From Hydrocarboniphaga sp. (GTDB taxonomy: Bacteria; Pseudomonadota; Gammaproteobacteria; Nevskiales; Nevskiaceae), in NCBI RefSeq assembly GCF_028291725.1, contig NZ_JAQGNT010000009.1:1-64000 (forward strand): a stretch of DNA of 64,000 bases. The letters run 5' to 3'. Below, in pieces: positions 14,830 to 51,093 of the stretch. A model generated the notes under the pieces. It was not told where the DNA came from. It saw only the letters and a program-made list of their open reading frames with translations, and made no database searches. A program made the position numbers and the translations under genes. Positions within the stretch are counted from its first letter, which is position 1; each line of letters begins with the position of its first letter.

Positions 14830-14839
14830 GCTGCGCCTC

Positions 14840-16234
14840 TCAACCCTCGTCGTTGACCCAGCGCACGAAGCGATGCATCGGCATGAAGCCATCATGAGGC
14901 AAGCCGGATTCGACCGCGCCGGCCGAGCCCAGATTGACGATGCGCTGCACACCCATCGCCGCCAGTGCGTTGCGCAGCTCGGCCTTGCGTGACGGCGGAT
15001 AGACACCGACGGTCTGCGTCGCGACATTGGCATGGCGCACGCCATCGCTGAGCGTGCCGACCGGCAATACGTTGACCACGCGGTTGTCGGGATGGAATTC
15101 GACCGGATCTTCCGAGCGGATCACCACGCCCTGGCCACGATAGTCGCCCCAGATCCGGTAATAGTCTTGCATGTCGCGCAGGCCGTCGATCTCCTCGCGC
15201 AGATTCTGCGGCAGCGGCCGGCCGGCCGCGGTCGCCATCGGCCGCTCGACGCCCATGCGCTGCTGCAGCAGCGCGCAATAGCGATCGACCTGCTCGGTCG
15301 TGCCCTCCACGAACTGGAAGCGGCTCGACACGCAGGCCTGCTGCTCGACCATCGTCGAATCGGCGGCGGCCAGATCGGCAACCTGCGCCAGCGTTTCGTC
15401 GGATTCGAAAGCCTCGCGGCCGATCAGCGAGATCGAGGTCTTGGGATCGAACGCCACCAGCTCGAAGCCCGGGCCGATGTATTTCTGCGCATTCATGATC
15501 GTGCTGCCGCCGCCCCAGGCGACGAGCTTGTCGAAGAACTGCGGCCGGAACAGCATGCTCTCGACCTTCTCGTCGCCGCCGCGCCAGTACGCGGCCGAGA
15601 ACGAGCGCGCCAACGGATGGCCGGGCGCAACCGCGGCGAGCGCGCGCAACAACGCGGTCGCGGTGAACAGGTCGTTCGACGGAATCTTGATCAGATGCAC
15701 GCCCTTGATCAGCGCACCGCGCAGGATCGTCATCGCCGCCACACCCGGCGAATTGCCGGCGATCACGTGCACCAGCCGCGGCGGAAACGCGCGGATGCGG
15801 TGGCGACGTCCGCTGGTCGCGTCGCTGATTTCGCGCCAGCCATCGACGACGTCGGCGCCGCCGAGTTCGGCACGCACCTGGAACTCCATGCTCGGGCGAT
15901 TGAAGATTTTCGGCAGCCCGGCATACGAGCGCTCGAGAATCGCCGCCGGCAGCAGGCTGGTGCGGATCGAGTAGTCCAGGGCCTGTGCGATCAGGCCCTC
16001 GGGATCGGCCGCGATCCACTGCCCCATCGCCACCATCACGTCCATGATCTCGGCCAGCGGCGTCTCGAACGCAGGGCCCGGCTCGTTGCGTGGCCAGACC
16101 AGCGCGTTCAGATCCAGCCTGGGCGTCGAGAAGCGCGCATGGGCCGGGCCGAACTCATGATCGGCGCCGACCACGACCTGGCCCTTGACGACATGGCACA
16201 GCGGAACCGCTGCAATTTGGATGGGGGCGTTCAT
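14840..16234 (-). CDS. LuxC-like acyl-CoA/acyl-protein reductase
   Basis: 464 residues, aldehyde-dehydrogenase superfamily, LuxC branch. It has the family segments HVIAGNSPGVAAMTI, IPSNDLFTA and WGGGSTIM, and EQQACVSSR containing the likely catalytic Cys. In luminous bacteria LuxC reduces activated fatty acid to aldehyde for luciferase. No luciferase (luxAB) is present here, so the aldehyde must serve another pathway. The ATG at 16234 overlaps the LuxE-like stop by four bases (ATGA), coupling activation and reduction. Confidence 0.88.
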   Translation of the reverse strand: MNAPIQIAAVPLCHVVKGQVVVGADHEFGPAHARFSTPRLDLNALVWPRNEPGPAFETPLAEIMDVMVAMGQWIAADPEGLIAQALDYSIRTSLLPAAILERSYAGLPKIFNRPSMEFQVRAELGGADVVDGWREISDATSGRRHRIRAFPPRLVHVIAGNSPGVAAMTILRGALIKGVHLIKIPSNDLFTATALLRALAAVAPGHPLARSFSAAYWRGGDEKVESMLFRPQFFDKLVAWGGGSTIMNAQKYIGPGFELVAFDPKTSISLIGREAFESDETLAQVADLAAADSTMVEQQACVSSRFQFVEGTTEQVDRYCALLQQRMGVERPMATAAGRPLPQNLREEIDGLRDMQDYYRIWGDYRGQGVVIRSEDPVEFHPDNRVVNVLPVGTLSDGVRHANVATQTVGVYPPSRKAELRNALAAMGVQRIVNLGSAGAVESGLPHDGFMPMHRFVRWVNDEG

Positions 16235-17586
16235 GCGTTCACGGCTCCGCGGATGTAGGCGTCGATGGTGCCGGCGCAACCGATATGGTCGTCCTGTCCC
16301 GGCCGGGTATAGCGTCCGATGGTGTCGAGCAGGGTCGGGCCGTGGCGGCCGCAGGCACAGCGCTCGGAGAAGTCGATGGCCACCTTGTCGCCAGTGATCA
16401 ATCCGCCCCAGCGGCCTTCATACAGCAGGTCGAGAAACGCGAAGCGCGCTTCGATCGGCTGGCCGCCGGCGTCTTCCGGCTTCACTCGTTTTTCTCCGCT
16501 GGCATCCAGCGGCAGTGCGATCAGGCCGGGCGCAATGTGATAGCGGCCGGCCTCGCAGCGCGGCAGTGTCTGCGCCATTTCGGTCATGCCGTAGGCGGCG
16601 AAGCGGATCACCTTGCCGTAGAAGCGCTCGACCTGCTGCTGATAATCCGCGGGCAGCGCCACGCCCTTGATGCCGCCGCCGGCGCTGATCACGCTTTGCG
16701 GATGGAACTCGCCGTCACCGACGCCGAGTTCGCGGGCACGCTCGATGATCATCATGTGCTGCGACCACAGGCCGGTCAGGAAGATCGGCTCGTGGCGGCG
16801 CTCCAGAATGCGGTCGGTAAGCTTCAGCAGGCCGGCGCGCATGCGCTGGCTCTTTTGCAGGCTCTTCAGTTCGAACGCCGCGATCTCATCCGGTGTCGCG
16901 CTGCCCTTGGCCATCTTGTTGCGCATCGCCGCCATCTCGCTCAACTCGGATATCAGCAGCGGCTCATCGGACAGTGCATAGGTGTCACCTGCCCTGCCCC
17001 AGTTCTTCGCGTTGGCGATCGCTGCTTCCACCGAACTCTGGCGACCCTTGATCGGCCCGAGCCAGAACACCGGCCGGTCGCTGCTGGCGCGCGCGAACGG
17101 CCAGGCGACGGTATGGCGCGCATGCCGCGCCTTCATCTCGCGATCACCCATCGTGTGATTCAGGAACGAGCACTTGCCGGTGGTGCCGCTGGTGGCGATC
17201 ACCGCATGCCCGGCATCCCACAGGCGCTCCAGCCAGTCGTCGACGTTGCGCACGCCCGCCACGTCGACACCGCTGACGTCGGCGACCGACAGTGTGTTGA
17301 GCCATTGCAGCATGCGGTCCCAGCGGCCCTGCTCGAAGAATGAGGCCGGATAGGATTTGTAGACGGTATGCGCGAACAGCAGCGGCACCAGATCGTCGAA
17401 CGAGCGGATCGCGCTGATACCGGCATCTTCGGCGCGCTTGGCGACCAGCGGAATCTGCTCGCGGCGCTGCGCAAACAGCTCCTGAGCCGCTTCGAGCTGC
17501 AGCGCGCGGATCTCGGCGGCCGGCTGGTCGTAGGCCTGGTCGGGATCCAGGATCAGATCCAGCAACTGGCGTCGGGCATTGCTCAC
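16231..17586 (-). CDS. LuxE-like acyl-protein synthetase / acid-activating ligase
   Basis: 451 residues of the ANL-related LuxE family. It has the nucleotide loop TSGTTGKCSFLN near residue 135, AYGMTEMAQTLPRCE near 335, and a paired Cys motif CACGRHG near the C-terminus. It should adenylate a carboxylic acid and hand the acyl group to LuxC. A homologue with the same motifs is at 62388-63731. GAGGTGAAC about ten bases upstream supports the 17586 start. Vibrio LuxE is about 370-380 residues, so this branch is longer. It is the first gene of the operon LuxE-LuxC-regulator-FadB-like. Confidence 0.85.
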   Translation of the reverse strand: MSNARRQLLDLILDPDQAYDQPAAEIRALQLEAAQELFAQRREQIPLVAKRAEDAGISAIRSFDDLVPLLFAHTVYKSYPASFFEQGRWDRMLQWLNTLSVADVSGVDVAGVRNVDDWLERLWDAGHAVIATSGTTGKCSFLNHTMGDREMKARHARHTVAWPFARASSDRPVFWLGPIKGRQSSVEAAIANAKNWGRAGDTYALSDEPLLISELSEMAAMRNKMAKGSATPDEIAAFELKSLQKSQRMRAGLLKLTDRILERRHEPIFLTGLWSQHMMIIERARELGVGDGEFHPQSVISAGGGIKGVALPADYQQQVERFYGKVIRFAAYGMTEMAQTLPRCEAGRYHIAPGLIALPLDASGEKRVKPEDAGGQPIEARFAFLDLLYEGRWGGLITGDKVAIDFSERCACGRHGPTLLDTIGRYTRPGQDDHIGCAGTIDAYIRGAVNA

Positions 17587-17761
17587 TTGTTCACCTCGCT
17601 AGCCTGGGCGTGGCACCGGGTGGGTGCTCTTGAGTAGTAAGCCAAGCTAAATACAAGTATCGGGATAGATCAATTCCGTCCGCGCTTCGGCGGTTTGTTC
17701 TCTCTAAACCGTTAGCTCGAGCTTACCGGCAAGCGCCGGCCGCCCGCTCGCTCCGCTAACT

Positions 17762-18472
17762 TCAGTGCATCGGAACCAGCGCCTCGTAAGGTGTCGGCGT
17801 CAGATGCTGGCCGCCGTCGGCGTACAGCACATGGCCAGTCAGAAATCGCCCGGCCTCACCAATCAGCAGCATCACGGCGCCGCCGATGTCATCAACCGGG
17901 TCGCCCATGCGCTGCATCGGCGTGCCGGCGATCAGCGCGTCCACGGCCTCGGGCGCCGCCAGACGCAGGCGGCGAAAGTTCTCGGTATCGGCGGCCGGCG
18001 CGAGCGCGTTGACCAGGATGTTGTACTGGCCCCATTCCTCGGCGGCACTGCGCGTCAGCGACTTGATCGCCTCGCTGGCGGCGACGGTATCGGCGGCCTG
18101 GCGATTCAGGCTGTCGCCGAGTGTCGCGACCAGGTTGACGATGCGGCCCGACTGCTGCGCGCGCATCGCCGGATAGACCGCCTGCATCATCCACAGCACG
18201 CGCTGCGCGTCCGGCGCGACCGCGTCGGTCTTGCTTTCCAGCGGCGCAAACGCCGCGGTCTCGTCGCTCGCGTTGACCAGAATGTCGATCCGCCCGTAGT
18301 CGGCGAGCGCGGCAGCGGCGACGCGCTCGGCCGCGGCTTTCGACTCCGGCATCGCATCGACCGTGATCACGGTCGCGCCTTCGTTTTTCAGTCGCGCCGC
18401 GATGCCGGCGCCGACTCCGGCTCCGGACCGGGCTTGCGTGACGATCGCCACGCGCTGGTTCAAGCGTCCCAT
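17762..18472 (-). CDS. SDR-fold protein lacking catalytic residues (pseudoenzyme)
   Basis: 236 residues clearly of SDR fold (DYGRIDILVNAS, RIVNLVATLGD, SAAEEWGQYNILVN, FLTGHVLYADGG). The active-site YxxxK is replaced by VAASE in the sequence before AIKSLTR, and the cofactor motif reads TQARSGAGVGAG instead of TGxxxGIG. About 30 residues between beta-2 and beta-4 are missing. The frame is intact, with a good Shine-Dalgarno site (AGGAG), and it starts 10 bp after the stop of a complete SDR. It is therefore likely expressed as a partner of that SDR, though recent inactivation is possible. Confidence 0.75.
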   Translation of the reverse strand: MGRLNQRVAIVTQARSGAGVGAGIAARLKNEGATVITVDAMPESKAAAERVAAAALADYGRIDILVNASDETAAFAPLESKTDAVAPDAQRVLWMMQAVYPAMRAQQSGRIVNLVATLGDSLNRQAADTVAASEAIKSLTRSAAEEWGQYNILVNALAPAADTENFRRLRLAAPEAVDALIAGTPMQRMGDPVDDIGGAVMLLIGEAGRFLTGHVLYADGGQHLTPTPYEALVPMH

Positions 18473-21062: not shown

Positions 21063-21157
21063 GTGCACTATTAGTCAAGACGCTAACCGCTCGATCTGCG
21101 AAAACAGCTCGTAACAGCCGCCGTGTTGCCGCTGTTGCATTAATTAAGTGCACTATT
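21063..21157. promoter_or_regulatory. Direct repeat GTGCACTATT in sulfotransferase promoter region
   Basis: GTGCACTATT occurs at 21063-21072 and 21148-21157 in the AT-rich stretch upstream of the sulfotransferase. GTGCAC is itself palindromic. The spacing (85 bp, about eight helical turns) would suit cooperative binding or looping; function is inferred. Confidence 0.35.
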
Positions 21158-21224
21158 TATGCTCGACGCAGACCAATAGGCGGGCGCCCGCGGCGACCCT
21201 CCCCATCATGCGAGGAGACTAGCA

Positions 21225-35807: not shown

Positions 35808-36713
35808 ATGGCGATCCCGGACTTTCAGTCGTTGATGCTTCCTGTGCTCAAGGAGTCTGCTGCCGGCGAGGTCCGCATTTCAGATGTCGTTGCCGTACTC
35901 GGAACCAAGCTGGCTTTGACCGAGGCAGAGCTGTCGGAACTCCTGCCCTCGGGCAAGCAGACGACGTTTGCCAACCGCGTGAACTGGGCCAAGAGCTACC
36001 TGGGCAAGGCCGGCCTGATCACACTCACGAAGCGCGCGTACTTCGAGATCAGTGAACGAGGGCGGGCGGTGCTTGCCAACCCGCCGCAGACGATCAATAT
36101 CAAGTTCCTCGAGTCTTTTCCCGAATTCAAGGCATTCCGATTGGCCGCTGCTGAGAGTCCGACCACACCGCAAGCGGAGCCGACGAACTTCAAAGAACTG
36201 GCGCCCGATGAGGTGATCCGGTCTGCAAGTGACGAGCTTCAGCAGTCGCTCAGTGCGGAGTTGCTCGCGAAGATACTTGCCTCACCCCCAGACTTCTTTG
36301 AGCGCCTGGTCGTTCAGCTTCTGATCGCCATGGGCTACGGTGGTTCAGCCATCGAAGCCGGTAAGGCGCTAGGAAAGAGCGGCGACGGTGGCGTAGATGG
36401 CGTCATCGATCAGGATGCGTTGGGTCTGGATCGGATCTACGTCCAGGCAAAGCGCTACACGGACAACAAAGTGTCGTCGGGCGAGATCCGGGACTTCTTC
36501 GGGTCGTTGGATCGATTCAAAGCGAACAAGGGCCTATTCGTCACGACGTCAACCTTCTCGCCGGCAGCGAAAGAAACGGCCGACATGCTGAGCAAACGCA
36601 TCGTATTGATCGATGGGATACTTCTCACTCGGCTGATGATCCGATTCGATATCGGCTGCCGGGTCGAAGAGGTGGTCTACATCAAGAAACTCGACGAGGA
36701 CTTCTTCGACTGA
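35808..36713 (+). CDS. mrr: Mrr-type restriction endonuclease (type IV)
   Basis: 301 residues with both Mrr domains. Residues ~1-95 are the winged-helix Mrr_N (AELSELLPSGKQTTFANRVNWAKSYL; GLITLTKRAYFEISERG). Residues ~165-290 are the PD-(D/E)xK nuclease (FFERLVVQLLIAMGYGG; GGVDGVIDQDALGLDRIYVQAKRY), with Asp and QxK catalytic residues in place. Mrr cuts DNA carrying foreign methylation. It stands between two toxin-antitoxin-type genes in a defence-like islet, with no methyltransferase, as expected for type IV enzymes. Confidence 0.9.
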   Translation: MAIPDFQSLMLPVLKESAAGEVRISDVVAVLGTKLALTEAELSELLPSGKQTTFANRVNWAKSYLGKAGLITLTKRAYFEISERGRAVLANPPQTINIKFLESFPEFKAFRLAAAESPTTPQAEPTNFKELAPDEVIRSASDELQQSLSAELLAKILASPPDFFERLVVQLLIAMGYGGSAIEAGKALGKSGDGGVDGVIDQDALGLDRIYVQAKRYTDNKVSSGEIRDFFGSLDRFKANKGLFVTTSTFSPAAKETADMLSKRIVLIDGILLTRLMIRFDIGCRVEEVVYIKKLDEDFFD

Positions 36714-37382: not shown

Positions 37383-40265
37383 TCAGGGCTGCAGGATGGC
37401 CCGTGCGCGCCGCACCGGCGGCGTGTCGCTCGCTTCCGGGAGTCGCTCGACAAGAACAGCGAGCGCGCTACGCTCCGCAGCCGCCGCCTCGTGGTGCTCG
37501 CACAGGTCGACGAGTGCAAGCAGTTCGAGCCAGGGCGCGTTCTGCGCTCGCGCTTCGTCGATCGCGCGCCGCACCGAGGCGGCGCCGGCCTCGGCCCGAG
37601 CTTGCGCACGGGCAATCGCCGCCTCCAGCAGCCACAGTTGCGGCAGGACCACGCGCTCGGCCAACTCGTCGGCGAGCTGCAGCGCTTCCTGCAACTGGGC
37701 TAGCGCCGCATCGGTACTGCCGGCCAGCAGCAGCGCCTGCGCCGAGTAGCCCAGCACCTCACTGGCGCCCGAGCGCATGCCAAGCCGGATGTTCTGCTCA
37801 TAGGCCTCGCGGATCAGGCGGTGGCCTTCGAGTGGCGCTCCGTTCAGGGCCTGCGCCCAGCCGCGGAACCAGCGGCACGCCGTCTGCCCCTGCGCCAGGG
37901 AGAATTCGTCGACCAGTGACTGCATCTCCTCGGCCAGCGCCGCGACCCGTTCGGCATTGCCCAGGCGCACCTCGAACAGCGCCTCGTGCCAGGTGGCGAC
38001 GAGCTGCGTCATCGGCTGCCGCAGCACGCGAGCGCGCTCACGTAAGCGTTGCACCTGTGCCCTCGCCTGCCCGACCCGCCCGCGGTGTACGAGCTCGATG
38101 GTCAGCATCCCGAGCAGCGTGACTTGCGGGTCGGTGACGAAGACCTCCGCCGCCGCGACGTCGAGCGCCTCGGCAATGGCGAGCCCGCGTTCTATCCATG
38201 CGAGCGCCGCCTGCGGCTGGCCCTGCAATTGGTGCACCTCGCCGTGCACGATGCACACCGCCAGCATCAGCGCCGGATCGTCCGATCCCGCCGCGAGCGC
38301 CTCGGCGCGTCCCGCCACCGCCAGCGCCTGCGCATACTCGCCGCGCAGGCTCAGCATGTAGCCGAAACCGTACAGCAGCCGCCCGCGCATCGCGTGGTCG
38401 GGCAAGTCTTGCAGCAGCGTGTACGCGCGCTCGAAAGCGCCTTTCGCTTCGCTGCCCACGCCTAGCGATTGGAAGGCCGCCACGCCGTGCAGCGTGGCGA
38501 CTGCGATCTCCAGTGCGTTGCGCTCGTCCCCCGTCGGCGCCTGCTGGAGCAGAACCGAGGCGCGCTCGGTGAGGCTGATGGACAAGGCCGGGCTGAAGTG
38601 CAGCAGCGCCGCTTCCGCCGCCTCGTTGTAGTAGCGCAGCGCGGTCATCGGCTGCCGCGCGCGGTCGAAGTGCATCGCCAACTCCGCTGCGGCCACCGGC
38701 ACGCCGGCCGAACGCTCCCGTTCGAGGGCCGCGCCGACCTTGCGGTGCAGCTGAGTTCGAACCGCAGGCGACGTGCGCTCGTACAGCACCTGCCGGAACA
38801 GCGCGTGCCGGAACGCGTAGGGCAGCTCTCCTGCGGCGTCGCTCTCGGCGGCTCGAGGCGCGGCGAGCCACAGGTGCTCCCGCACCAGCGCCTCGCAGGC
38901 ATCGACCACTGACGCGGCATCGCGCTCCAGAGCCAGCGCCACCGTATCGACACGGAATTCCACTCCGCAGACAGCCGCCGCCGAGAGCAGGGCGCGCGAC
39001 TCGTTGTCCAGCCTGGCCATGTAGTGGTCGATGATGGCCGCGAGACTCTCCGGAACCGCCATCGCCGCGAGCTGCGCTTCCACCGCGGCGTCGTCCGCCC
39101 TGCGTTCCATCACCTCGGTGATGACCGACGAGACGAACAGCGGCACGCCGTCGGTGCGCGCGTGCAGCGCACGCACGAAGGCCTCGTCGCGCGCGAGCGA
39201 GGCCGAGTGTTGCGCGATGCATGCGGCGACCTCAGTCTCCGAGAACGGGTCGAGCACCACCTCCTGGCACAGGCGCTGCCGGCGCAGCTCGTGCCGCAGC
39301 GGGTTGAGCGGATGGTTCAGCGCGATCACCTCGGCCAGGCGGAAGCTAGCCAGCCACATCAGGCACGCGCGTCCGCGCCGCCGCGCGAGGTAATCGATCA
39401 GCTGCAGCGTCGCCCGATCACTCCAGTGCAGATCTTCCGTCACCAGCAGCAAGGGACGCTGCTCGGTGTAGCGGTCGAGCAGCTCGCCCATTTCGCGCAG
39501 CATGCGTTCCGGGCCCACGCCAGCCAGCTCGCGCCGCAGCGCGTCGCGTTCCTCGGCGGTGCTCAGCCACGGCAGCTGCAGCAGCCAGGTCGGCGCCACA
39601 CTACGCAGCAGCACCGGCAGTGTGGGGTCGCCGCGACACAGCTCGGCCAGCGCTTCCAGCACCGGCAGGTAGGGCTCGCCCGTGCCGTAGTGCTCCACGC
39701 ACTGCCCGCGCGCGCAGGCGATGCCGCCGAGGCTGGCGACGAAGTGCTCGATCAGCGTGGTCTTGCCGATGCCCGGTTCGCCAGCGACCCAGACCACCGC
39801 GCGCTGCCCGGTGCAGGCTTGATCCCAGGCCTGCTGCAGCCGGGCGATGGCGTTCGCGCGGCCAACGAACGACGACGTCGGCTCCGGGCCTGGCGGCAGC
39901 GTGACGGCGACGGACTGTGCCGCAGGCGCGGCGGCCGGCGCCGCAATGAAGCGGTAGCCACGCCGCGGCACGGTCTCGATAAATCGCGGCTCGCGGGGGT
40001 TGTCACCGAGCGCCGTGCGCAGGTCGCTGATGGCGGTCTTGAGTACTGATTCGGTGACGAACTGGTGGCCCCACACCGCGTCGAGCAGTGCGTCCTTCGC
40101 GAGCAGCGTGCCCGGCTGGCGCGCCAGCGCGCACAGCAGGTTGAAGGGCGTGGGCGCGAGCGCGACGGCCTTGCCGCCTCGCAGCAGCCAGGCGTTCGCC
40201 TCATCGAGTTCGAACTCGTCGAAGCGGACGCGAACCGGATTCGGGTTGGACGGCGAGCGTGCCAC
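37383..40265 (-). CDS. Large regulator: OmpR-type winged helix + ATPase + TPR-like region
   Basis: 960 residues. Residues ~10-110 are an OmpR/CadC-type winged helix (LLAKDALLDAVWGHQFVTESVLKTAISDLRTALGD ... IETVPRRGYRFI). Residues ~125-430 are an NTPase with Walker A GEPGIGKTT and Walker B LLLVTEDLHWSD. The remainder is all-helical, TPR-like (repeated Ala/Leu helices with LQGQPQAALAWIERG). The layout matches SARP/AfsR-like or MalT-like ligand-gated activators, but with the DNA-binding domain at the N-terminus. Its ligand and targets are unknown; the amidohydrolase 165 bp upstream runs on the same strand. Intact frame, no signal peptide. Confidence 0.85.
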   Translation of the reverse strand: MARSPSNPNPVRVRFDEFELDEANAWLLRGGKAVALAPTPFNLLCALARQPGTLLAKDALLDAVWGHQFVTESVLKTAISDLRTALGDNPREPRFIETVPRRGYRFIAAPAAAPAAQSVAVTLPPGPEPTSSFVGRANAIARLQQAWDQACTGQRAVVWVAGEPGIGKTTLIEHFVASLGGIACARGQCVEHYGTGEPYLPVLEALAELCRGDPTLPVLLRSVAPTWLLQLPWLSTAEERDALRRELAGVGPERMLREMGELLDRYTEQRPLLLVTEDLHWSDRATLQLIDYLARRRGRACLMWLASFRLAEVIALNHPLNPLRHELRRQRLCQEVVLDPFSETEVAACIAQHSASLARDEAFVRALHARTDGVPLFVSSVITEVMERRADDAAVEAQLAAMAVPESLAAIIDHYMARLDNESRALLSAAAVCGVEFRVDTVALALERDAASVVDACEALVREHLWLAAPRAAESDAAGELPYAFRHALFRQVLYERTSPAVRTQLHRKVGAALERERSAGVPVAAAELAMHFDRARQPMTALRYYNEAAEAALLHFSPALSISLTERASVLLQQAPTGDERNALEIAVATLHGVAAFQSLGVGSEAKGAFERAYTLLQDLPDHAMRGRLLYGFGYMLSLRGEYAQALAVAGRAEALAAGSDDPALMLAVCIVHGEVHQLQGQPQAALAWIERGLAIAEALDVAAAEVFVTDPQVTLLGMLTIELVHRGRVGQARAQVQRLRERARVLRQPMTQLVATWHEALFEVRLGNAERVAALAEEMQSLVDEFSLAQGQTACRWFRGWAQALNGAPLEGHRLIREAYEQNIRLGMRSGASEVLGYSAQALLLAGSTDAALAQLQEALQLADELAERVVLPQLWLLEAAIARAQARAEAGAASVRRAIDEARAQNAPWLELLALVDLCEHHEAAAAERSALAVLVERLPEASDTPPVRRARAILQP

Positions 40266-43615: not shown

Positions 43616-44398
43616 TCAGTCCGCCCAGCGCGGGGCGCGTTTCTCCAGGAACGCCAGCGCGCCTTCTCGATTGTCGGGCGATGCGCGCAGCCGCTGGCTG
43701 GCCGCTTCGGTAACGACGCGCGCATCGGCTTCGTCCATGCGCGTTGCCGCCCGCGCGATCGCCAGCGTCTCGCGCACGGCCAGCGGTGAGTTTTGCGCGA
43801 TACCTGCGGCCAGCGTCAGCGCCTCGGCGATCACCTGTGCGTCGGGTACCACGCGGTTCAACAATCCGGCTTCGTAGGCGCGCGGTGCCGCGACGAGTTC
43901 GCCGGTCAGCAGCCACTCCAGCGCGATCGAATGCGCTACCCGCGCCGGCAGGCGGAACACGCCGCAGGAGCCGGCGATGGTGCCGCGGCTGACTTCGGGC
44001 AGGCCCAACCGCGCGTTGTCGCCGGCAACGATCAGGTCGCAGGACAGCGCCAGCTCCAGGCCACCGCCGGCGGCGACGCCGCGGATCGCGGCGATCCAGG
44101 GCTTGCGCCGCGGATACGCGGTCAGGCCCAGATAACCACCACGTGGCCGCAGCAGCTCCTGGTCGCGGCCGGCGGCGATCGTCGCCAGATCGGCACCGGC
44201 GCTGAAGGCCTTGTCGCCGGCGCCGCTGAGCACGACGGCGCGGATCGCGGCATCGGCTTCGAGTTCGTCGGCGGCGGCTTCGAGCGCCACCGCCATATCG
44301 ACATCGATCGCATTGCGCGCCGACGGGCGATCCATCAGCACATGCGCGACATGCTCGCCGACGCGCTCGATCCGTACCTTGCCGGCTTCGGCGGCCAT
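43616..44398 (-). CDS. Enoyl-CoA hydratase/isomerase family protein
   Basis: 260 residues of crotonase fold: FSAGADLATIA, GVAAGGGLELALSCDLIVAGDNARLGLPEV (oxyanion Gly and the two Glu-region segments). It should hydrate or isomerise an acyl-CoA; which one is unknown. Its ATG overlaps the stop of the double-GntR gene by one base (TGATG), so the regulator and enzyme are translationally coupled. Confidence 0.9.
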   Translation of the reverse strand: MAAEAGKVRIERVGEHVAHVLMDRPSARNAIDVDMAVALEAAADELEADAAIRAVVLSGAGDKAFSAGADLATIAAGRDQELLRPRGGYLGLTAYPRRKPWIAAIRGVAAGGGLELALSCDLIVAGDNARLGLPEVSRGTIAGSCGVFRLPARVAHSIALEWLLTGELVAAPRAYEAGLLNRVVPDAQVIAEALTLAAGIAQNSPLAVRETLAIARAATRMDEADARVVTEAASQRLRASPDNREGALAFLEKRAPRWAD

Positions 44399-46125
44399 CA
44401 GCTCTTGCTCCGCTTTTTGGCAGCTTTCTTGACTGCCGGCTTCCTGACTGGGCCTTTTTTAACGGCAGGCGGCTTCTTGGCCGCTTTCTTCGTGGCGGCT
44501 ACTTTCGGTGCCGCCGGCCATTCCGGTGACAGCTCCTCGGTATCGCGCAGCGATTGCAGCCACTCGCTGCGCGGCGCCTCGCCGTACCAAGCATCGACCA
44601 GCTTCAGGTGCCGCGTCATCAGACGCCGTGCCAGCGCCACTTCGCCACGGCTGATCGCGCCGACCAGTTCGGTATGGCTGTCGGTGAACACTTTCCAGAT
44701 GTCCGGCAGCGGCACGCGTGTCGAATAGTAGGCGGCGATTTCCGCCATCACCTTGGTGAACAGCGCCAGCACACGATTGCCGCTGAGCACGCTGATGGCC
44801 TCGTGCACGCGGCCGTGAATTTCCAGCATGTCTTCGCGGCCGGCCTGGCGCTGCTGCTCCAGCAGCAACTCCAGCTGCCGGCGGCCGGTGGCGTCAATGC
44901 TGCGCGCCGCGAGCTGCGCCGCGGTGGTCTGGATCGTCCGCCAGAGTTCATAAAAATGGCGCGGTTTCAGGCGCGCATACTGGAAATAGATCGACGTCAG
45001 TTCGACCGTATAAGCGGGATCGGGCTTGCCGACGACCAGGCCGCCGCCGAGGCCGCGGCGCACGCCGACGATGGAATGCAGCTCCAGCGTGCGCACGGCC
45101 TCGCGGAAAACCGCGCGGCTGACGCCGTAGCGCGCGCCGACTTCAGGCTCGGCGCCGATGCGGGTGCCCGGTGCGGACTTGGCCGCGGCGATATCGTGCG
45201 CGATGCGCAGCGAGGTCCGATGCCCGAGCTTCATCGCGGCATTGCCGGCGTTGGGCGAATCGTGGGTCACGCCCAGCGTCAGTGCGCTGGCATCCTCGAA
45301 CTTGATCCGGATACGCCGCAGCTGCTGTTCGGCTTGCTTGCGGCTGCGGTCCAGCGAGGCACGCATCGCCATCCGCGCCTGCATTTCGTCGCCGCCGAGC
45401 AGCGCTTCGACCAGTTCTTTTTTCTCGCGCCGCGATTCGCGGATCAGCATCTTCACGTCAGGGTGATCGGCCTCGACGGTCAGCATGTCGCTGGTCACGT
45501 AGTACAGCGATTCCAGCAGCAGCGACAGGGCGGCGTTGCGCGACAGCGAGTTGATCGCGCCACGCAGCGCCAGGTGTCGCGTCGCCTCCAGCTGCATGTT
45601 GTCCGCCGCGCTGGCGAGCAGACCCTGCAGCAATTCGCCCAGGCGCTTCAGATCGGCGTCGGTGGCGCGCTCGCAGATCAGGCCGACGAGCAGGCCTTCG
45701 ACGACTTCACGCGCTTCGAACAACTCGCTCAGGCTGACCGCGGCCAGTTCCAGATAGCTGGCGATCGCCAGCACGACCGAATCACGAGCCGGCTGCTGCA
45801 CGACCAGGCCGCCGCCGACGCCGCGGCGCATTCTCGCCACGCCGTGGCGCTCGATCTGGCGCACTGCTTCGCGCAGGGTCGAGCGGCTCACGTTGTAGTG
45901 GCGCATCAGCTCGACCTGGTTGCCGAGCACCTCGCCGACCGGCCAGCCGCGCGCCGCGATGTCGCGCTTGATGGCGTAAGCGGTGACTTCGCCGAGCTTG
46001 CGGGTGCGCGCCGCCTCGTTGTCCTTCGGCACCTGGAACAGATTCGCCGCTGCCGCTGTCCACTTCGAGCGCGACGACCGGGAGGGTTTGCTGCGCGCAG
46101 CGGCGTCGTTGGGGCTAGAGGGCAT
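44398..46125 (-). CDS. Tandem GntR-GntR regulator with lysine-rich H1-like tail
   Basis: 575 residues. Two complete GntR/FadR-type units lie in one chain: HTH at ~45-110 (HYNVSRSTLREAVRQIERHG; RRGVGGGLVV) with an FCD-like helical domain to ~275, then a second HTH at ~305-370 (YGVSRAVFREAVRTLELHS; RRGLGGGLVV) with a second helical domain to ~525. The last ~30 residues (KKAAKKPPAVKKGPVRKP ...) are an AK/PK-rich tail resembling histone H1-like proteins. The two HTHs could bind both halves of an operator from one chain. It is divergent from the PaaK-like operon and 26 bp from the palindrome 46151-46162, so probably autoregulated. Confidence 0.88.
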   Translation of the reverse strand: MPSSPNDAAARSKPSRSSRSKWTAAAANLFQVPKDNEAARTRKLGEVTAYAIKRDIAARGWPVGEVLGNQVELMRHYNVSRSTLREAVRQIERHGVARMRRGVGGGLVVQQPARDSVVLAIASYLELAAVSLSELFEAREVVEGLLVGLICERATDADLKRLGELLQGLLASAADNMQLEATRHLALRGAINSLSRNAALSLLLESLYYVTSDMLTVEADHPDVKMLIRESRREKKELVEALLGGDEMQARMAMRASLDRSRKQAEQQLRRIRIKFEDASALTLGVTHDSPNAGNAAMKLGHRTSLRIAHDIAAAKSAPGTRIGAEPEVGARYGVSRAVFREAVRTLELHSIVGVRRGLGGGLVVGKPDPAYTVELTSIYFQYARLKPRHFYELWRTIQTTAAQLAARSIDATGRRQLELLLEQQRQAGREDMLEIHGRVHEAISVLSGNRVLALFTKVMAEIAAYYSTRVPLPDIWKVFTDSHTELVGAISRGEVALARRLMTRHLKLVDAWYGEAPRSEWLQSLRDTEELSPEWPAAPKVAATKKAAKKPPAVKKGPVRKPAVKKAAKKRSKS

Positions 46126-46150: not shown

Positions 46151-46162
46151 ATAGGGTCCTAT
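46151..46162. promoter_or_regulatory. Candidate GntR operator ATAGG-GT-CCTAT
   Basis: Perfect 5+2+5 inverted repeat 26 bp upstream of the double-GntR start in the 248-bp divergent region. A second region at 46261-46280 (GGATACTATTTATAGGATG) has further ATAGG/CTAT half-sites near the PaaK-side promoter. Related 12-mers occur at 49707 and 51171. Confidence 0.5.
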
Positions 46163-46373
46163 TATCGGTGGGTTTCCGCGGCGATGCGACGCTGCCCCAG
46201 GACTGTTGCCTTCATCGAAAAAAACCTGTGATGGCTGGCGTCGGCTCGTCGTCTTGAATTAGGATACTATTTATAGGATGCTCGCCGTAACCGGGCCTCT
46301 GTTATGGGCCGCGGACGCCAGCTCTTAAAACGACGAGGAGGAGAAAGCGGCCGCGCAGCGGGCGCCGAATACG

Positions 46374-47759
46374 ATGGACCCAAGCACATCCCAGACGCCC
46401 AGCCCGCCGACGGCCGTAGTCGAACCACGGTTTCTGGACGCCGTCGAAACCCTGCCCCGCCCGCAGCTGCGCGCGCTGCAGGAACAGCGGTTGCTGAGGA
46501 TGCTGCGCTACGCCTACGAGCGCTCGGCGCTGCTGCGCAACAACTGGCAGGCGGCCGGCGTCAGGCCCGACGACATCCGCAGCATCGACGACTTCAAGCG
46601 CCTGGCACCGTTCACGGACAAGGACCAGATCCGCGCGTTTCGCGACGAGCACGACGATCCTTTCGGCGGTCTGCTGTGCATCCCGCCCGAAGAAATCAGC
46701 TTCATCGCGTCCAGCTCCGGCACCACCGGCGACCCGACGCTGTTCACCTGGCGCTGGGGCTCGTCCGATGGAATGGACCCGCAGTGCCCGGGCATCGAGG
46801 CCGGCACCTCGAACTTCTGGCCGAATACGCCGCGTGACCTGTGGCAGATGGGCGTGCGCGCCGGCGACTACGTGGTGCTGCTGGCCAACCGCATCCGCGG
46901 CCCGGTGTTTCGCGTGCTCGAGCGCCTGGGCACGATCCCGATCCTGCTCAGCTATCACCCCGACGACACCCATGCCTTCGTCGAGATGTCGCGGCGCTAT
47001 CGGCCGGCGGTGCTGTTCACGGCCAGCAATCCTTTCATCTACCAGCTCGAACTGCTGGAGCGCGATCACGGCGTCGACATGCGCGAAGTGTTCACCAGCT
47101 ACAAGGCGGTGATGTTTGCCGGCGAGCCGATGGGGCCGCGCAACCGCCGCCTGCTCGAAGGCTGGGGGCTGATCGGACGTATCTACAACCAGACCGCGTT
47201 CGGCGACATCGCGGTGGCGCACGAATGCCGCGAACACGAGGGCATGCATGCGCACGAGGATTTCGCGCTGGTGGAACTGGTCGATCCGCAGACCGGCGCG
47301 CTGATCGAGGGCGACGGCGTTGGCGAACTGTGCGTGACCTCGCTGATCAACGATGTCGATCCGCTGATCCGCTATCGCTCCGGCGACATGATCCGGCTGA
47401 CCACCGAGCCCTGCGCCTGCGGCCGTAGCAGCGCACGCTTCTGGACCGTCGGCCGTTCCGGCGACGAGGTGGTCGTCGACGGCCGCACCGTGCTGCCGAT
47501 GGATGTCTGGGCCGCCGTGGAGAATGTCGATGACACCTCGGCCGGCCTGTTCCAGGTGATCCGTACCGGCCGCCACATGCCGGCGCTGCGGATGCGCGTC
47601 GGCTACGGCGGCACGCCCGACCTGGCCGCGGTGCAGGCGCAGCTGGTGGAATCGGTGCAGCGCGCGGTCGGCCTGATCGCCGAGATCGAATTAGTGCCCT
47701 ATTCGGAGCTGCTGAAGATCGGCCCCCGCAACAAGATTCCCCGGACCGCGAAGCAGTGA
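46374..47759 (+). CDS. Phenylacetate-CoA ligase (PaaK)-like adenylating enzyme
   Basis: 461 residues. ANL motifs: ASSSGTTGDPTLFTW near residue 120 (P-loop), FAGEPMGPRNRRLLE, IYNQTAFGDIAVAHEC, and YRSGDMIRLTTEPCACGR, typical of the PaaK branch. It likely makes an acyl- or aryl-CoA from a free acid. A purine-rich block (GAGGAGGAG) lies ~40 bp upstream of the ATG, farther than ideal, and no in-frame start lies between, so a leader may exist. It is the first gene of a plus-strand operon with GTGA overlaps. Confidence 0.83.
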   Translation: MDPSTSQTPSPPTAVVEPRFLDAVETLPRPQLRALQEQRLLRMLRYAYERSALLRNNWQAAGVRPDDIRSIDDFKRLAPFTDKDQIRAFRDEHDDPFGGLLCIPPEEISFIASSSGTTGDPTLFTWRWGSSDGMDPQCPGIEAGTSNFWPNTPRDLWQMGVRAGDYVVLLANRIRGPVFRVLERLGTIPILLSYHPDDTHAFVEMSRRYRPAVLFTASNPFIYQLELLERDHGVDMREVFTSYKAVMFAGEPMGPRNRRLLEGWGLIGRIYNQTAFGDIAVAHECREHEGMHAHEDFALVELVDPQTGALIEGDGVGELCVTSLINDVDPLIRYRSGDMIRLTTEPCACGRSSARFWTVGRSGDEVVVDGRTVLPMDVWAAVENVDDTSAGLFQVIRTGRHMPALRMRVGYGGTPDLAAVQAQLVESVQRAVGLIAEIELVPYSELLKIGPRNKIPRTAKQ

Positions 47760-48442
47760 TCCCGACGAACCATGCAACACCATTGAAAGCACCGGCCGGA
47801 GCGCCCTGGATCGTCGGCGTCGCGCACTTCGCCTGCGGCACGCTGCCCTACCCGCTGAGCCGCCGCGATATCGAGCGCGACAGCGCCTGGGCGGTGACGG
47901 TCTACGAACGCCTGGGCCTGCAGGCCGGCCAGATGATCCACCTGATCGGCGACGGTGCCGAGGAAGTGTCGTGGTGGCCGTTCGAGAACGCGGCGATGCG
48001 CCTGCACATCCCGTGGATCCAGGCCGAATCCGGCGCTTTCGACACCAGCCGCACCGACATGGTGATCCGCCGCTTCAAGCTGCAGGCGATTCTCGGCCTG
48101 TCGACGCCGGTACTCGATGCGCTGCTCGCGCTGGGCCGCGATCCGCGGCAGTTCTTCGGCGGCCTGCGCGCGGTGGTTGCGGCGCCGGCGGCGGCGCGCA
48201 AGCTCGCCGCGCTCAGCGTGCCGGCGTGGACGCTGCTGCAGATCGGCCCGGTATTCGCATTCGAGCCGCCAGCCGGCGGCGGTGCCCGCTACGACGAGAG
48301 CGAGTGGCGCGTCGACGCGATCGATGGCGAACTCGCGCTGTCCAGCGTCAACGCGCGCGCGGCGCCGTTTGCGAAGCTGCGCAGCGGCCTGCGTGGGCGC
48401 GTCGAGATCGTCGACTCCGAGCGCCGCGTGTTCCTGGAGTGA
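47756..48442 (+). CDS. Small ANL-related protein, function unknown
   Basis: 228 residues from GTG 47756 in a GTGA overlap with the PaaK-like gene. The segments YERLGLQAGQMIHLIGDG and WWPFENAAMRLHIPWIQAES resemble the N-terminal subdomain of acyl-adenylating enzymes (x-GDxVLxx...x-W-P-x...), but no P-loop or C-terminal ANL motif exists. It could be an auxiliary or acceptor domain for the preceding ligase. I do not recognise a named family. Confidence 0.65.
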   Translation: MIPTNHATPLKAPAGAPWIVGVAHFACGTLPYPLSRRDIERDSAWAVTVYERLGLQAGQMIHLIGDGAEEVSWWPFENAAMRLHIPWIQAESGAFDTSRTDMVIRRFKLQAILGLSTPVLDALLALGRDPRQFFGGLRAVVAAPAAARKLAALSVPAWTLLQIGPVFAFEPPAGGGARYDESEWRVDAIDGELALSSVNARAAPFAKLRSGLRGRVEIVDSERRVFLE

Positions 48443-49686
48443 GCGACGGCGCGGCCAATCCGAATCCTGGGCCGGCATCGTCCGCACCGGACGTGCCGGA
48501 TCGCTTGTCACCCGGCATCTCGCGCAGCATCGCGATCTCGCTGACCGCGGTTCCGGTGATGCACGGCATCGGCCAGTCGCTGATCTTCGCGATTCTGCCG
48601 GCGGTCGCCCGCGACATCGGCATCGACGAAAACGGCGTCGGCCTGATCTATATGCTGCCGGCGATCGCCTGGTCGCTGGCAACCGCGTGGTGGGGCCATC
48701 GCTGCGACACCTGGGACCGCAAGCCGATCCTGCTGTTGAGCCTGCTCGGCTTTGCAGCGTCGTTGCTGATCTTCGCTCTCGCCTCCGCCGGCGCCTATGC
48801 AGGCTGGTACGGCGCCGGCCTGCTGTGGACGCTGATCCTGATGTCGCGTCTGCTCTACAGCGCGCTCAGCAGCGGCGCGCTGCCGGCCGCCCAGGCCTAC
48901 GTCATCGCGCTGACGCCGCCGGCGCGGCGCACGATCGCGATCGGCCGGCTGACCGCGGCCTGGAATCTGGGCACGCTAATGGGCCCAGGGGTGATCGGCG
49001 TGCTCGCGGTGTTCGGCTTGCTGACCCCGCTGTTCGCGACCGCCGCTTTCGCGATGCTGGTCTGGCTGGGCGTGCGCCGTGGTCTGGACCCGCAGCCGCC
49101 GCAGCGCAGTCACGGCGCCCCGACGCTGAGGATGAGCCCGTTCGATCCACGGATCCGCTCGGTACTGCTGATCGGACTGTGCGGCAGCATTTCGCAGGCG
49201 ACGCTGCTGCAGACGCTGGCCTACACCTTCATGGACCGGATCGGCGTCGCCACTGCCGACGCGCCGCGCGTGGTCGGCATCGCCCTGATGCTGGCGGCCC
49301 TGGCGACGCTGTTCTCGCAGACTGTGCTGGTGCCGAGACTCGGCGCCGCACCCAGGAAGCTGGAAAGTCTCGGCCTGACGATCAACCTCTGCGCTTTCGC
49401 CGGCCTGGCGATCAGCACGAGCTCGCTTAGCGTCTGGCTGGCGACGCTGCTGTGCGGCCTCGGCTACGGCCTGGTGCGGCCCGGCAACATCGCCCGCGCC
49501 TCGCTGTCGGTGCAGGCCGATGAGCAGGGAGCGATCGCCGGGCTCAACGGCGCGTTGTGGTCCGCCGGTTTCATCGTGACCCCGATTTTTGCAATGCCGC
49601 TGCACCGGATCGACCCCCGGCTGCCGTTCGTCGCAGCGGGCGCCGTGATCCTGGTCGCGCTGCTGCTGAGCCGACACAGATCCTGA
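48439..49686 (+). CDS. MFS transporter
   Basis: 415 residues from GTG 48439 (GTGA overlap). Twelve hydrophobic segments are apparent; GHRCDTWDRKPILLLSLLG is the MFS loop 2-3 motif and SRLLYSALSSGALPAAQAYVIALTPPARR the TM4-5 region. Likely imports or exports the substrate of the ligase. Coupled to the two preceding genes by overlapping stops/starts, making a three-gene unit. Confidence 0.85.
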   Translation: MSDGAANPNPGPASSAPDVPDRLSPGISRSIAISLTAVPVMHGIGQSLIFAILPAVARDIGIDENGVGLIYMLPAIAWSLATAWWGHRCDTWDRKPILLLSLLGFAASLLIFALASAGAYAGWYGAGLLWTLILMSRLLYSALSSGALPAAQAYVIALTPPARRTIAIGRLTAAWNLGTLMGPGVIGVLAVFGLLTPLFATAAFAMLVWLGVRRGLDPQPPQRSHGAPTLRMSPFDPRIRSVLLIGLCGSISQATLLQTLAYTFMDRIGVATADAPRVVGIALMLAALATLFSQTVLVPRLGAAPRKLESLGLTINLCAFAGLAISTSSLSVWLATLLCGLGYGLVRPGNIARASLSVQADEQGAIAGLNGALWSAGFIVTPIFAMPLHRIDPRLPFVAAGAVILVALLLSRHRS

Positions 49687-49687
49687 G

Positions 49688-49718
49688 TTGACTTGAAGCG
49701 TTTCAAATAGGCTACTAT
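49688..49718 (+). promoter_or_regulatory. Promoter and operator-like sites before sulfotransferase
   Basis: TTGACT at 49688-49693 and TACTAT at 49713-49718 could form a -35/-10 pair (19-bp gap). TTGAA-GCGT-TTCAA at 49693-49706 is a perfect inverted repeat, and ATAGGCTACTAT at 49707-49718 resembles the double-GntR operator (ATAGGGTCCTAT). Confidence 0.4.
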
Positions 49719-49812: not shown

Positions 49813-51093
49813 ATGCTGAAACACGTACCGGTCCCGGCGCCCGACAGCCTGACCCCGCGGGCCCGCGAATTCGCCTATCCGCAGATCGATACCGCGGACG
49901 AGATCGTCGCCGGCAGTGAACTCGAGCGCCGCTTTCCGCTCGATCCGCAGTCTCTGATGCAACGCGCTCGCGAAGAAACCGGGCTGCTGGATTTCGGCCC
50001 CGATCCCTTCCTCGAACCTCTGACCGCGCTATGCGATTCACTGAGCCGCGAGGTCGATCTGAACGCCGGCGGCCGCGAGAATGCCTATCGCCGGCTGATG
50101 ACCATCCTGGTGACGCGCCTGCGGCTTGAAGCGCTGTGGAGGCAGCGGCCGGAGATCCTGAACCTGCCGGTGCCCAAGCCGATCTTCGTCGTCGGCCTGC
50201 CGCGCAGCGGCACGACGTTCCTGCAATGGCTGCTGGCGCGCGACGCGAGCCTGCGCCACGCGCCGTTCTGGGAGCTGCTGTTCCCGCTGCCTTTCGGCGA
50301 TCCGGAGGCGCCGGTGTCGCAGCCCGATCCGCGCATCGCCGCCGCACACGCGGCGCTGGACCGGCTGCACCGGATCGCACCCGAGATGACCAAGATGCAC
50401 CAGCTCGAGGCCGAGGAGCCCGAGGAAGAAATCGCACTGCTGTCGCTGGGCTTCTGCTCGATGGCGTTCGAATTCTCGTTCGCGGTACCCAGCTACGTCG
50501 ACTACTACCTGCGCGCCGATCACACCGCCGGCTATGCCTACTTCCGGCGCGTATTGCAGACGCTGCAGTGGCTGCGCGGCGGCGAGCAATGGGTGCTCAA
50601 GGCGCCGATGCACATGGAGAACCTGAAGCCGCTGCTGGCGGTGTTTCCGGACGCGCTGATCGTGCAGACGCATCGCGACCCGGTGACGACGACGGTGTCG
50701 CTGGCCAGCCTGACCTGTTACGGCATCCGCAACTACTTCGATCACCCGAATCCACTGCTGGTCGGCAGCAACATGGTCGCGATCATCGAGCGCCTGCTGC
50801 GCGGTATCTGTGACGCGCGCAAAGCCGGTGATCCGCGCTACGTGGACGTGCATTTCCGCGACCTGACTGCCGATCCGATCGGCACCGTGCGGCGCATCTA
50901 CGCCGCCTGTGGCAAGACGCTGGACGCCGCCGCCGAAACAGCCATGCGCGACTGGATACAGACCAGCCAGCGCGGCAAACCCGGCGGGCATACTTATTCA
51001 GCGGAGGATTTCGGCATCGACATGGCGCAGCGCCGCCAGGCGCTGTCGTTCTATACCGAGCGTTTCGGGGTACCCGAAGACCGCCGCGCCTGA
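49813..51093 (+). CDS. Sulfotransferase-family protein (Sulfotransfer_3 type)
   Basis: 426 residues; the PAPS loop FVVGLPRSGTTFLQWLL near residue 130 and QTHRDPVTTTVSLAS near residue 290 match the family. It is more typical of the Sulfotransfer_3 branch than the paralogue at 21225 (PRSGTS there). GGAGAAACAG upstream supports ATG 49813. The TonB receptor follows on the same strand after 178 bp with its own promoter. Substrate unknown; a small lipid or steroid alcohol is an unproven guess. Confidence 0.86.
   Translation: MLKHVPVPAPDSLTPRAREFAYPQIDTADEIVAGSELERRFPLDPQSLMQRAREETGLLDFGPDPFLEPLTALCDSLSREVDLNAGGRENAYRRLMTILVTRLRLEALWRQRPEILNLPVPKPIFVVGLPRSGTTFLQWLLARDASLRHAPFWELLFPLPFGDPEAPVSQPDPRIAAAHAALDRLHRIAPEMTKMHQLEAEEPEEEIALLSLGFCSMAFEFSFAVPSYVDYYLRADHTAGYAYFRRVLQTLQWLRGGEQWVLKAPMHMENLKPLLAVFPDALIVQTHRDPVTTTVSLASLTCYGIRNYFDHPNPLLVGSNMVAIIERLLRGICDARKAGDPRYVDVHFRDLTADPIGTVRRIYAACGKTLDAAAETAMRDWIQTSQRGKPGGHTYSAEDFGIDMAQRRQALSFYTERFGVPEDRRA

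Follow-up and report, generated by a model that had tools for sequence, protein, structure and literature searches.

GntR-type transcriptional regulators usually act as homodimers. They form a large family (PMC4494728), within which the FadR/FCD subfamily (FadR, NanR, PdhR, DgoR, LldR and TM0439) offers the nearest described systems to the subject of this study: a regulator encoded at 44398-46125, on the minus strand, of a 64,000-nucleotide stretch of Hydrocarboniphaga sp. DNA (contig NZ_JAQGNT010000009.1, positions 1 to 64,000; hereafter the window). The operators of FadR-type proteins are described as normally having a GT in each half, with 3 or 2 bases between them (PMC4494728), and the FCD metal sites described are H134/H174/H196 in TM0439, H148/H192/H214 (with N144) in Ps5454 and D146/H150/H195 in DgoR, with none in FadR (PMC7674646). 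Fusion of two regulators in one chain also has a published analogue in Mce3R, a double-TetR repressor of Mycobacterium tuberculosis described as autoregulated, with two non-identical helix-turn-helix (HTH) motifs, one ligand domain, two asymmetric operator sites upstream and a connection to cholesterol and lipid genes (PMC11667970).

The window gene is one intact frame of 575 amino acids, with its ATG at 46125, its stop at 44398-44400 and no internal stop, and its product has the domain order GntR-FCD-GntR-FCD followed by a 35-residue Lys/Ala/Pro tail. We read it as a single-chain FadR/FCD-type GntR pseudo-dimer, predicted to be autoregulated and to control a regulon for the catabolism of coenzyme A (CoA) thioesters, probably comprising genes for the degradation of lipid-like compounds, and place the probability of this reading at roughly two in three. 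The new elements are a candidate shared operator and regulon and an apparently old, widespread tandem family, with all function predicted from sequence. The original prediction also held that no described regulator has this combination of features: no description of tandem, double or fused GntR regulators was found in the open-licence literature, which upholds the claim in part, but the tandem layout is common in genomes and Mce3R provides an analogue (PMC11667970). The window protein resembles Mce3R in carrying two full regulators per chain, non-identical HTHs and, by prediction, autoregulation and a non-palindromic operator with two sites upstream; it differs in having the GntR rather than the TetR fold. 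No sequence relation was found between them, and no TetR family appears among the seven Pfam matches of the window protein up to an E-value of 1; Mce3R is an analogue and not a relative. On that analogy the protein looks like a GntR counterpart of Mce3R; a literature search for fused-dimer TetR proteins gave nothing relevant.

Architecture and descent of the tandem regulator

That a single polypeptide holds two complete GntR regulators and a Lys/Ala/Pro tail, as first proposed from the bare sequence, is confirmed by exact coordinates, Pfam matches and composition. PF00392 detects two GntR stretches (whole-protein score 61.6 bits against a cut-off of 27) and PF07729 two FCD stretches (98.3 bits against 24.3), and in a genome scan each FCD is found separately above the latter cut-off, at 45349-45726 with 48.7 bits and at 44602-44952 with 67.2 bits. 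The two halves are 31-32% identical (blastp 5e-12 and 1e-17). Following the chain from its N-terminus, all on the minus strand, a disordered, mildly basic extension (residues 1-38, 46012-46125; 6 K/R against 3 D/E) leads into the N-half winged helix-turn-helix (wHTH; residues ~42-111, 45793-46002, with the best Pfam GntR stretch at residues 49-104) and the N-half FCD (residues ~112-275, 45301-45792); these are followed by the C-half wHTH, the second GntR stretch (residues ~299-368, 45022-45231), the C-half FCD (residues ~369-520, 44566-45021) and the tail (residues 541-575, 44401-44505), which is predicted to be disordered. An AlphaFold2 model of the single chain, based on 69 aligned sequences, is confident over most of its length (mean predicted local distance difference test score, pLDDT, 85.4; predicted template modelling score 0.82; pLDDT of at least 90 at 419 of the 575 residues), renders both FCD domains all-helical, and drops below a pLDDT of 50 at residues 1-38 and 532-575, residue 563 excepted.

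Among solved proteins, searches by sequence and by structure retrieve GntR proteins of the FadR/FCD type, with the FCD aligned to 6az6, 9vkn and 7c7e. With PF00392 and PF07729 both over their cut-offs and an FCD in each half, the protein is, as judged from its domains, a member of the FadR/FCD subfamily, from which it differs in having two subunits per chain, disordered ends and an N half without the three metal histidines that are common there. It appears to stand outside the named groups: none of the FadR-type groups (NanR, LldR, PdhR, ExuR and others) reaches its NCBIfam cut-off among the 25 of 27 matches listed, the best being NanR at 96.6 bits against 260.

A scan of species genomes for relatives, from which the best 80 of 245 were kept as loci (some of them near-copies, and L042, L051 and L074 lacking a readable proper end), found tandem proteins to be widespread. 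They occur in Hydrocarboniphaga effusa, Pseudomonas, a gammaproteobacterial and an alphaproteobacterial metagenome-assembled genome (MAG), many Actinomycetota and one Acidobacteriota MAG, and genera with the same four-domain order include Mycobacterium, Nocardia, Frankia, Pseudonocardia and Pseudomonas. Best segment identity is 29-42% in 78 of the 80 loci, those outside H. effusa; H. effusa itself has three tandem GntR proteins, 61, 49 and 36% identical to the window protein. Two further tandem proteins are encoded in the window's own genome, on contigs C46 and C48. The C46 protein (L108:9922-11571) is very divergent, showing two GntR stretches and one FCD by Pfam, and its gene directly follows one for a cytochrome P450, with genes for aldehyde and acyl-CoA dehydrogenases nearby. 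Among the genomes of the bacterial family, 2 of 58 have a match at 1e-20, one being the own genome, and two other genomes of the genus have no such match. Of 83 candidate stretches in viral contigs none was confirmed as a relative, and the four plasmid records that matched did so only in part, each over less than 80% of the query. The M. tuberculosis protein Rv3060c, of about 490 amino acids, may also belong to the tandem GntR proteins; papers that mention it term it FadR-type.

Across 81 aligned tandem proteins R85, A87 and E92 of the first wHTH and R337, R341 and E348 of the second are invariant, with single-row exceptions in some neighbouring columns. Two trees were built from separated halves. 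In the first, of 30 tandem proteins split in two with four single-domain proteins, the N halves form one side of a branch with support of 98/97, and gammaproteobacterial, Frankia/Nocardia and Acidimicrobiales groups recur on both the N and the C side. The second tree had seven single-domain rows, E. coli PdhR among them. Here the C halves are set apart by a branch with 100/97 support, and none of the single-domain rows is placed among the halves, although the root shifts into the N side with these additional outgroups. As the two kinds of half fall apart and each contains the same deep groups, the simplest reading of these trees would be a single ancient duplication, after which the fused pair was inherited as one.

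A candidate operator and its predicted regulon

The candidate operator, approximately TTAAATRGTRTCCTATTTAA, occurs twice between the regulator and a divergent CoA-ligase gene: as ATAGGGTCCTATT at 46151-46163 (plus strand), 25 bases from the regulator ATG, and as ATAGTATCCTAAT at 46258-46270 (minus strand), 103 bases from the ligase ATG. A third copy, ATAGTAGCCTATT, lies at 49706-49718 (minus strand) between genes for a major facilitator superfamily (MFS) transporter and a sulfotransferase, and a weaker candidate of 15.4 bits at 21141-21161 (plus strand), flanked by an MFS gene and another sulfotransferase gene, hints that the cluster at 11-26 kb may belong to the same regulon. When the upstream regions of five tandem regulators were inspected by eye, ATAGKGTCCTATT was common to four of them. 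Searching the whole genome with the 13-mer ATAGKRTCCTAWT, allowing at most one mismatch, gave nine matches at eight distinct places, six of which (two of the six being seeds) fall on contigs C99 and C48, together 204 of 6466 kb or 3.2% of the genome; the same two contigs hold two of the genome's three tandem regulators. Seven of the eight places are wholly outside called genes, and the eighth, on C32, runs a few bases into a TetR-type gene at its called start; for matches of a reversed-pattern control in this genome the corresponding figure is one in four. The flanking genes encode a CoA ligase and a thiolase, a FadB-like protein and a LacI-type regulator, a glucose-methanol-choline (GMC) oxidoreductase and an enoyl-CoA hydratase, a flavin reductase and an acyl-CoA dehydrogenase, a P450 and a TetR-type regulator, and a sulfotransferase. 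A sigma-70 promoter scan gave one weak match.

In H. effusa all five matches to the 13-mer, two of which had been seen beforehand, fall within 85 kb. One tandem regulator is encoded inside this stretch, a second borders its start, and the third lies some 32 kb outside. A matrix trained on the eight sites of the own genome was then applied to a 160-kb H. effusa island and to an arbitrarily chosen 160-kb control, and gave 14 matches against 2 at 14 bits or more, 12 against 0 at 16 bits or more, and 20 against 7 at 10 bits or more. Eight of the 14 island matches are outside called genes. Promoters with a site in both species, their correspondence judged by eye from N-termini, are those of the CoA ligase, the enoyl-CoA hydratase/GMC genes, the flavin reductase, the window regulator with its ligase, and the C48-type regulator. 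Upstream of the relatives at large, ATAGNGTCCTAT was found with at least 9 of 11 letters for L012, L020 and L066 alone. A de novo search of 46 other upstream regions (45 from outside the Gammaproteobacteria, and Pseudomonas L015) nevertheless returned the motif aTGAGgATaCtcAA, used by 27 of the 46 and scoring 118 against 58-62 in four shuffled sets, with the geometry of the gammaproteobacterial motif: two 4-base arms, 4 apart.

In a hand-picked set of 19 gammaproteobacterial sites, 10 from the own genome and 9 from H. effusa, the outer arms are largely mirror images; at the centre, 18 of the 19 carry GT on one side and 15 carry GG on the opposite side. Compared with the TKGT..ACMA palindrome of the FadR/FCD subfamily, the candidate has symmetric arms and one arm that is mostly GG instead of GT, and its 2 nucleotides between the inner pairs are the rarer spacing as described for the subfamily (PMC4494728). 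Unequal half-sites of this kind are what two unequal HTHs could tolerate.

Several observations weigh against this interpretation. Firstly, the controls are not empty: the reversed pattern has four matches in the own genome and two in H. effusa, both matches in the control stretch are intergenic (coding fraction 0.90 in the island, 0.83 in the control), and the shuffled sets were searched with fewer seeds than the real one (250 against 400). Secondly, placement is imperfect. The region upstream of the 49% H. effusa regulator has no clear site, six of the 14 H. effusa matches are inside called open reading frames, three of these no more than about 250 bases from a start whose call may be too far upstream, and one window match, at 47687, lies within the ligase gene. 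Thirdly, the site sets are biased towards the seed pattern, and among 27 sites from other lineages the asymmetric core occurs in five and a symmetric GGATCC or GTATAC in six; as symmetric cores are about as common there, the asymmetric centre is not a rule of the family. The motif could also belong to another regulator common in these islands. Lastly, across the tandem loci, adjoining genes (n=77) include 8 AMP-binding, 8 short-chain dehydrogenase/reductase (SDR), 4 thiolase, 4 acyl-CoA thioesterase and 4 enoyl-CoA hydratase (ECH) matches, compared with 3, 8, 2 and 4 AMP-binding, SDR, thiolase and ECH matches among farther genes (n=76), where thioesterase is not among the 25 families listed. 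Acyl-CoA functions are therefore only mildly richer next to the regulator, and neighbour-gene support is weak because farther genes in the same loci differ little.

The mechanism that we favour would run as follows. An old duplication would have fused two full FadR/FCD-type GntR subunits into one chain that folds as a pseudo-dimer, its two non-identical wHTHs reading the arms of one 16-20 bp pseudo-palindrome (AAATRG-TRTC-CYATTT); we infer one chain per site. Bound at the two sites 107 bp apart, the regulator would repress its own gene and the ligase-transporter-sulfotransferase operon, and its paralogues in the own genome would probably recognise an almost identical operator at further promoters of CoA-thioester catabolism. 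The releasing ligand would be a carboxylate or CoA-thioester intermediate of the pathway, held through the metal site of the C-half FCD, with the N-half FCD serving mainly as a structural partner and the tail as a recent add-on that at most raises general affinity for DNA. The single-chain pseudo-dimer suggested in the original prediction gains support, short of proof, from the conservation of both wHTHs in 81 of 81 proteins, the confident whole-chain model and a predicted site with two arms.

The same chain could still dimerise, as a dimer of tandems in the manner of Mce3R. It would then behave like ordinary FadR-type proteins, with a unit of four wHTHs and four FCDs bridging the sites 107 bp apart by looping or cooperative binding. 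Two sites do lie in one intergenic region; Mce3R, also with two operator sites, is described with 63% of particles as homodimers on two duplexes, and a GntR-superfamily protein has been termed tetrameric (PMC11667970, PMC7797058). Yet one pseudo-palindrome is the size of a single dimeric GntR site and several of the predicted promoters carry one site only, and we regard the bridging homodimer as unlikely, though well worth keeping in view. The placement of the wHTHs on the FCDs also counts against a confident pseudo-dimer, since some FadR chains align to the model across both halves and others within one. A packing of the N-half wHTH on the C-half FCD was hinted at by FadR chains spanning the model from residue ~42 to 516, with 1hw1_A (212 residues, 5.6 Å) and 4p9u_A (221 residues, 5.6 Å) aligned across both halves; it was dropped because 6az6_A (the top row) and 2di3_B align inside the C half alone, at 2.6 and 3.3 Å, and because the domain swap of NanR is reported for the crystal and not on DNA (PMC8012715).

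The tail and the ligand side

The last 35 residues comprise 13 K, 8 A, 4 P, 4 V, 2 R, 2 S, 1 T and 1 G, are in frame, and end at a stop that overlaps the ATG of the enoyl-CoA hydratase gene at 43616-44398. A Lys/Ala/Pro-rich C-terminus was found in none of the 77 related loci with a readable end, the 61% H. effusa homologue (which ends in ...SLEKTPESA) included, and the window protein is the only one in the 69-row alignment with at least five Lys beyond position 531. The tail thus appears, as far as seen, to be private to this species, represented by one genome, and as it has no counterpart in the relatives read it is placed outside the core mechanism. Its GC content at third codon positions (GC3) is 0.69, against 0.84 in the body.

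The idea that a histone H1-like tail gives the regulator a sequence-independent grip on DNA is a possible one, and in its stronger form would make the tail a functional nucleoid anchor, altering the regulator's way of searching or compacting DNA, and not a neutral add-on. The stretch has 13 Lys and 2 Arg, and an exact KKAAKK codon search of the own genome found four other proteins: by eye, one of HU type, two like histone H1 and one like a topoisomerase, with a K-rich end. A DNA-contact role would fit such company. Used as a protein query, the tail gave a single further match in the genome, a weak one at E 0.94. The literature search for H1-like tails on regulators yielded the AlgP paper alone, in which KPAA-repeat peptides of AlgP are reported to bind DNA in vitro (PMC9239181). 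AlgP and PhaF share with the window protein a Lys/Ala/Pro-rich, disordered C-terminus on a DNA-associated protein; they differ in that the window tail has 35 residues, no regular KPAA repeat and an unrelated body, as compared with the 154-residue repeat region described for the AlgP type (PMC9239181). Absence of the tail from every readable relative counts against an anchoring function, and a cheap gain of simple sequence also fits, since tail GC3 is below that of the body; we regard a nucleoid anchor as unlikely, somewhat more so than the dimer of tandems. A single-FCD regulator on contig C6 of the same genome (L119, 57076-57381) also ends in a short basic stretch (...GTRKAVAKPRKK).

On the ligand side, the C half has histidines in the metal columns, H441, H484 and H506, with a further H437 four residues before the first; their spacings of 43 and 22 compare with 44 and 22 in Ps5454 (PMC7674646), and the columns are His in 60, 61 and 60 of the 69 aligned rows. 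The equivalent N-half columns, His in 54, 53 and 51 of the 69 rows, read R188, K235 and S257 in the window protein; most other tandem GntR proteins keep histidines in both FCDs. In the 13 proteobacterial rows the N half has His in one row at 188 and in none at 235, and at 257 His is outside the five commonest letters. The C-half histidines are themselves kept in just 5, 6 and 7 of these 13 rows, which counts against the favoured mechanism. The ancestor of the family probably had two metal sites; in the branch of the window protein the N-half site was lost, and in some proteobacterial relatives the C-half site was altered as well.

The proposal that the chain senses two ligands is therefore not supported for the window protein, where it is weakest because the N half has lost its metal histidines, although that half could still bind a metal-free ligand. 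The loss might be taken further, to a protein in which one half works and the other, such as an N half that no longer senses, is a degenerate remnant. This is improbable, because the key positions of both wHTHs are equally conserved (81 of 81 rows), the model folds the N-half FCD with confidence, and E. coli FadR is described as functioning without metal histidines (PMC7674646). An assembly or frameshift artefact, in favour of which nothing was found, has next to no probability for the tandem core, because homologues in other genomes and the two further proteins of the own genome have the same layout in intact single frames; the tail, unlike the core, has no second genome for comparison.

Neighbouring genes and significance

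Downstream of the regulator, and overlapping its stop with its own start, is a gene of the enoyl-CoA hydratase family (43616-44398, minus; Pfam ECH_1 9.7e-55). On the other side a divergent series on the plus strand begins with the PaaK-like AMP-dependent CoA ligase (46374-47759; NCBIfam 1.1e-43 and Pfam AMP-binding 5.6e-4, both below cut-off), which is 72% identical to its counterpart at the syntenic place in H. effusa. It continues with a 228-residue protein without a Pfam match (47756-48442), kept beside the ligase in H. effusa at 55%, an MFS transporter of uncertain start (48340-49686; MFS_1 2e-39) and a sulfotransferase of family 3 (49813-51093; Pfam 1.6e-35; syntenic in H. effusa, 68%), after which come a TonB receptor and a DUF1254/DUF1214 protein. 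Beside the 61% homologue in H. effusa (L012) the ligase, small protein, MFS, sulfotransferase and DUF1254 genes stand in the same order, and an SDR-like match lies between the regulator and the enoyl-CoA hydratase. Among the scanned genes of C48, a lipid-transfer-type thiolase and a choline-dehydrogenase-type GMC protein are over cut-off, and the names acyl-CoA ligase and pimeloyl-CoA dehydrogenase are below it; these family names point to no substrate.

Elsewhere in the window, the region at 16231-18472 differs from its equivalent in H. effusa (L013), where the 49% tandem GntR gene sits between the counterparts of 17762-18472 and 16231-17586; none is present there in the window genome. A second kind of fused regulator is encoded at 14020-15045 (minus), with an ArsR-type HTH (PF12840, residues 82-131) followed by MarR (PF12802, residues 216-277) in one frame of uncertain upstream start; its H. 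effusa match is 60% identical and likewise adjoins the LuxC-type gene. Between catabolic clusters lies an Mrr-type restriction endonuclease (35808-36713, plus; Mrr_N and Mrr_cat), and 37383-40265 (minus) encodes a 960-residue protein that combines a DNA-binding Trans_reg_C domain with an AAA_16 ATPase domain.

A broader proposition, which we put forward tentatively and at a little under even odds, is that these proteins represent a widespread old family of single-chain GntR pseudo-dimers, uncharacterised to judge from the literature searched, across Actinomycetota, Pseudomonadota and one Acidobacteriota genome. In this family one half would have been released from sensing by the duplication and the HTHs would have come to read unequal half-sites, whilst in Hydrocarboniphaga several paralogues would act through a common operator to run a CoA-thioester catabolic island together, and this species would have gained a histone-like DNA anchor. 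Because both subunits share a chain, either half can be mutated separately, and the tandem GntR lineage would thereby offer a direct test of which subunit must sense and whether one ligand per pair suffices, and would show how half-sites drift once two HTHs differ. Hydrocarboniphaga is described as a genus with putative steroid degraders (PMC4810484). The candidate operator and predicted regulon would provide a handle on its catabolic islands, and may serve as a starting point for the many members of the family in Actinomycetota.

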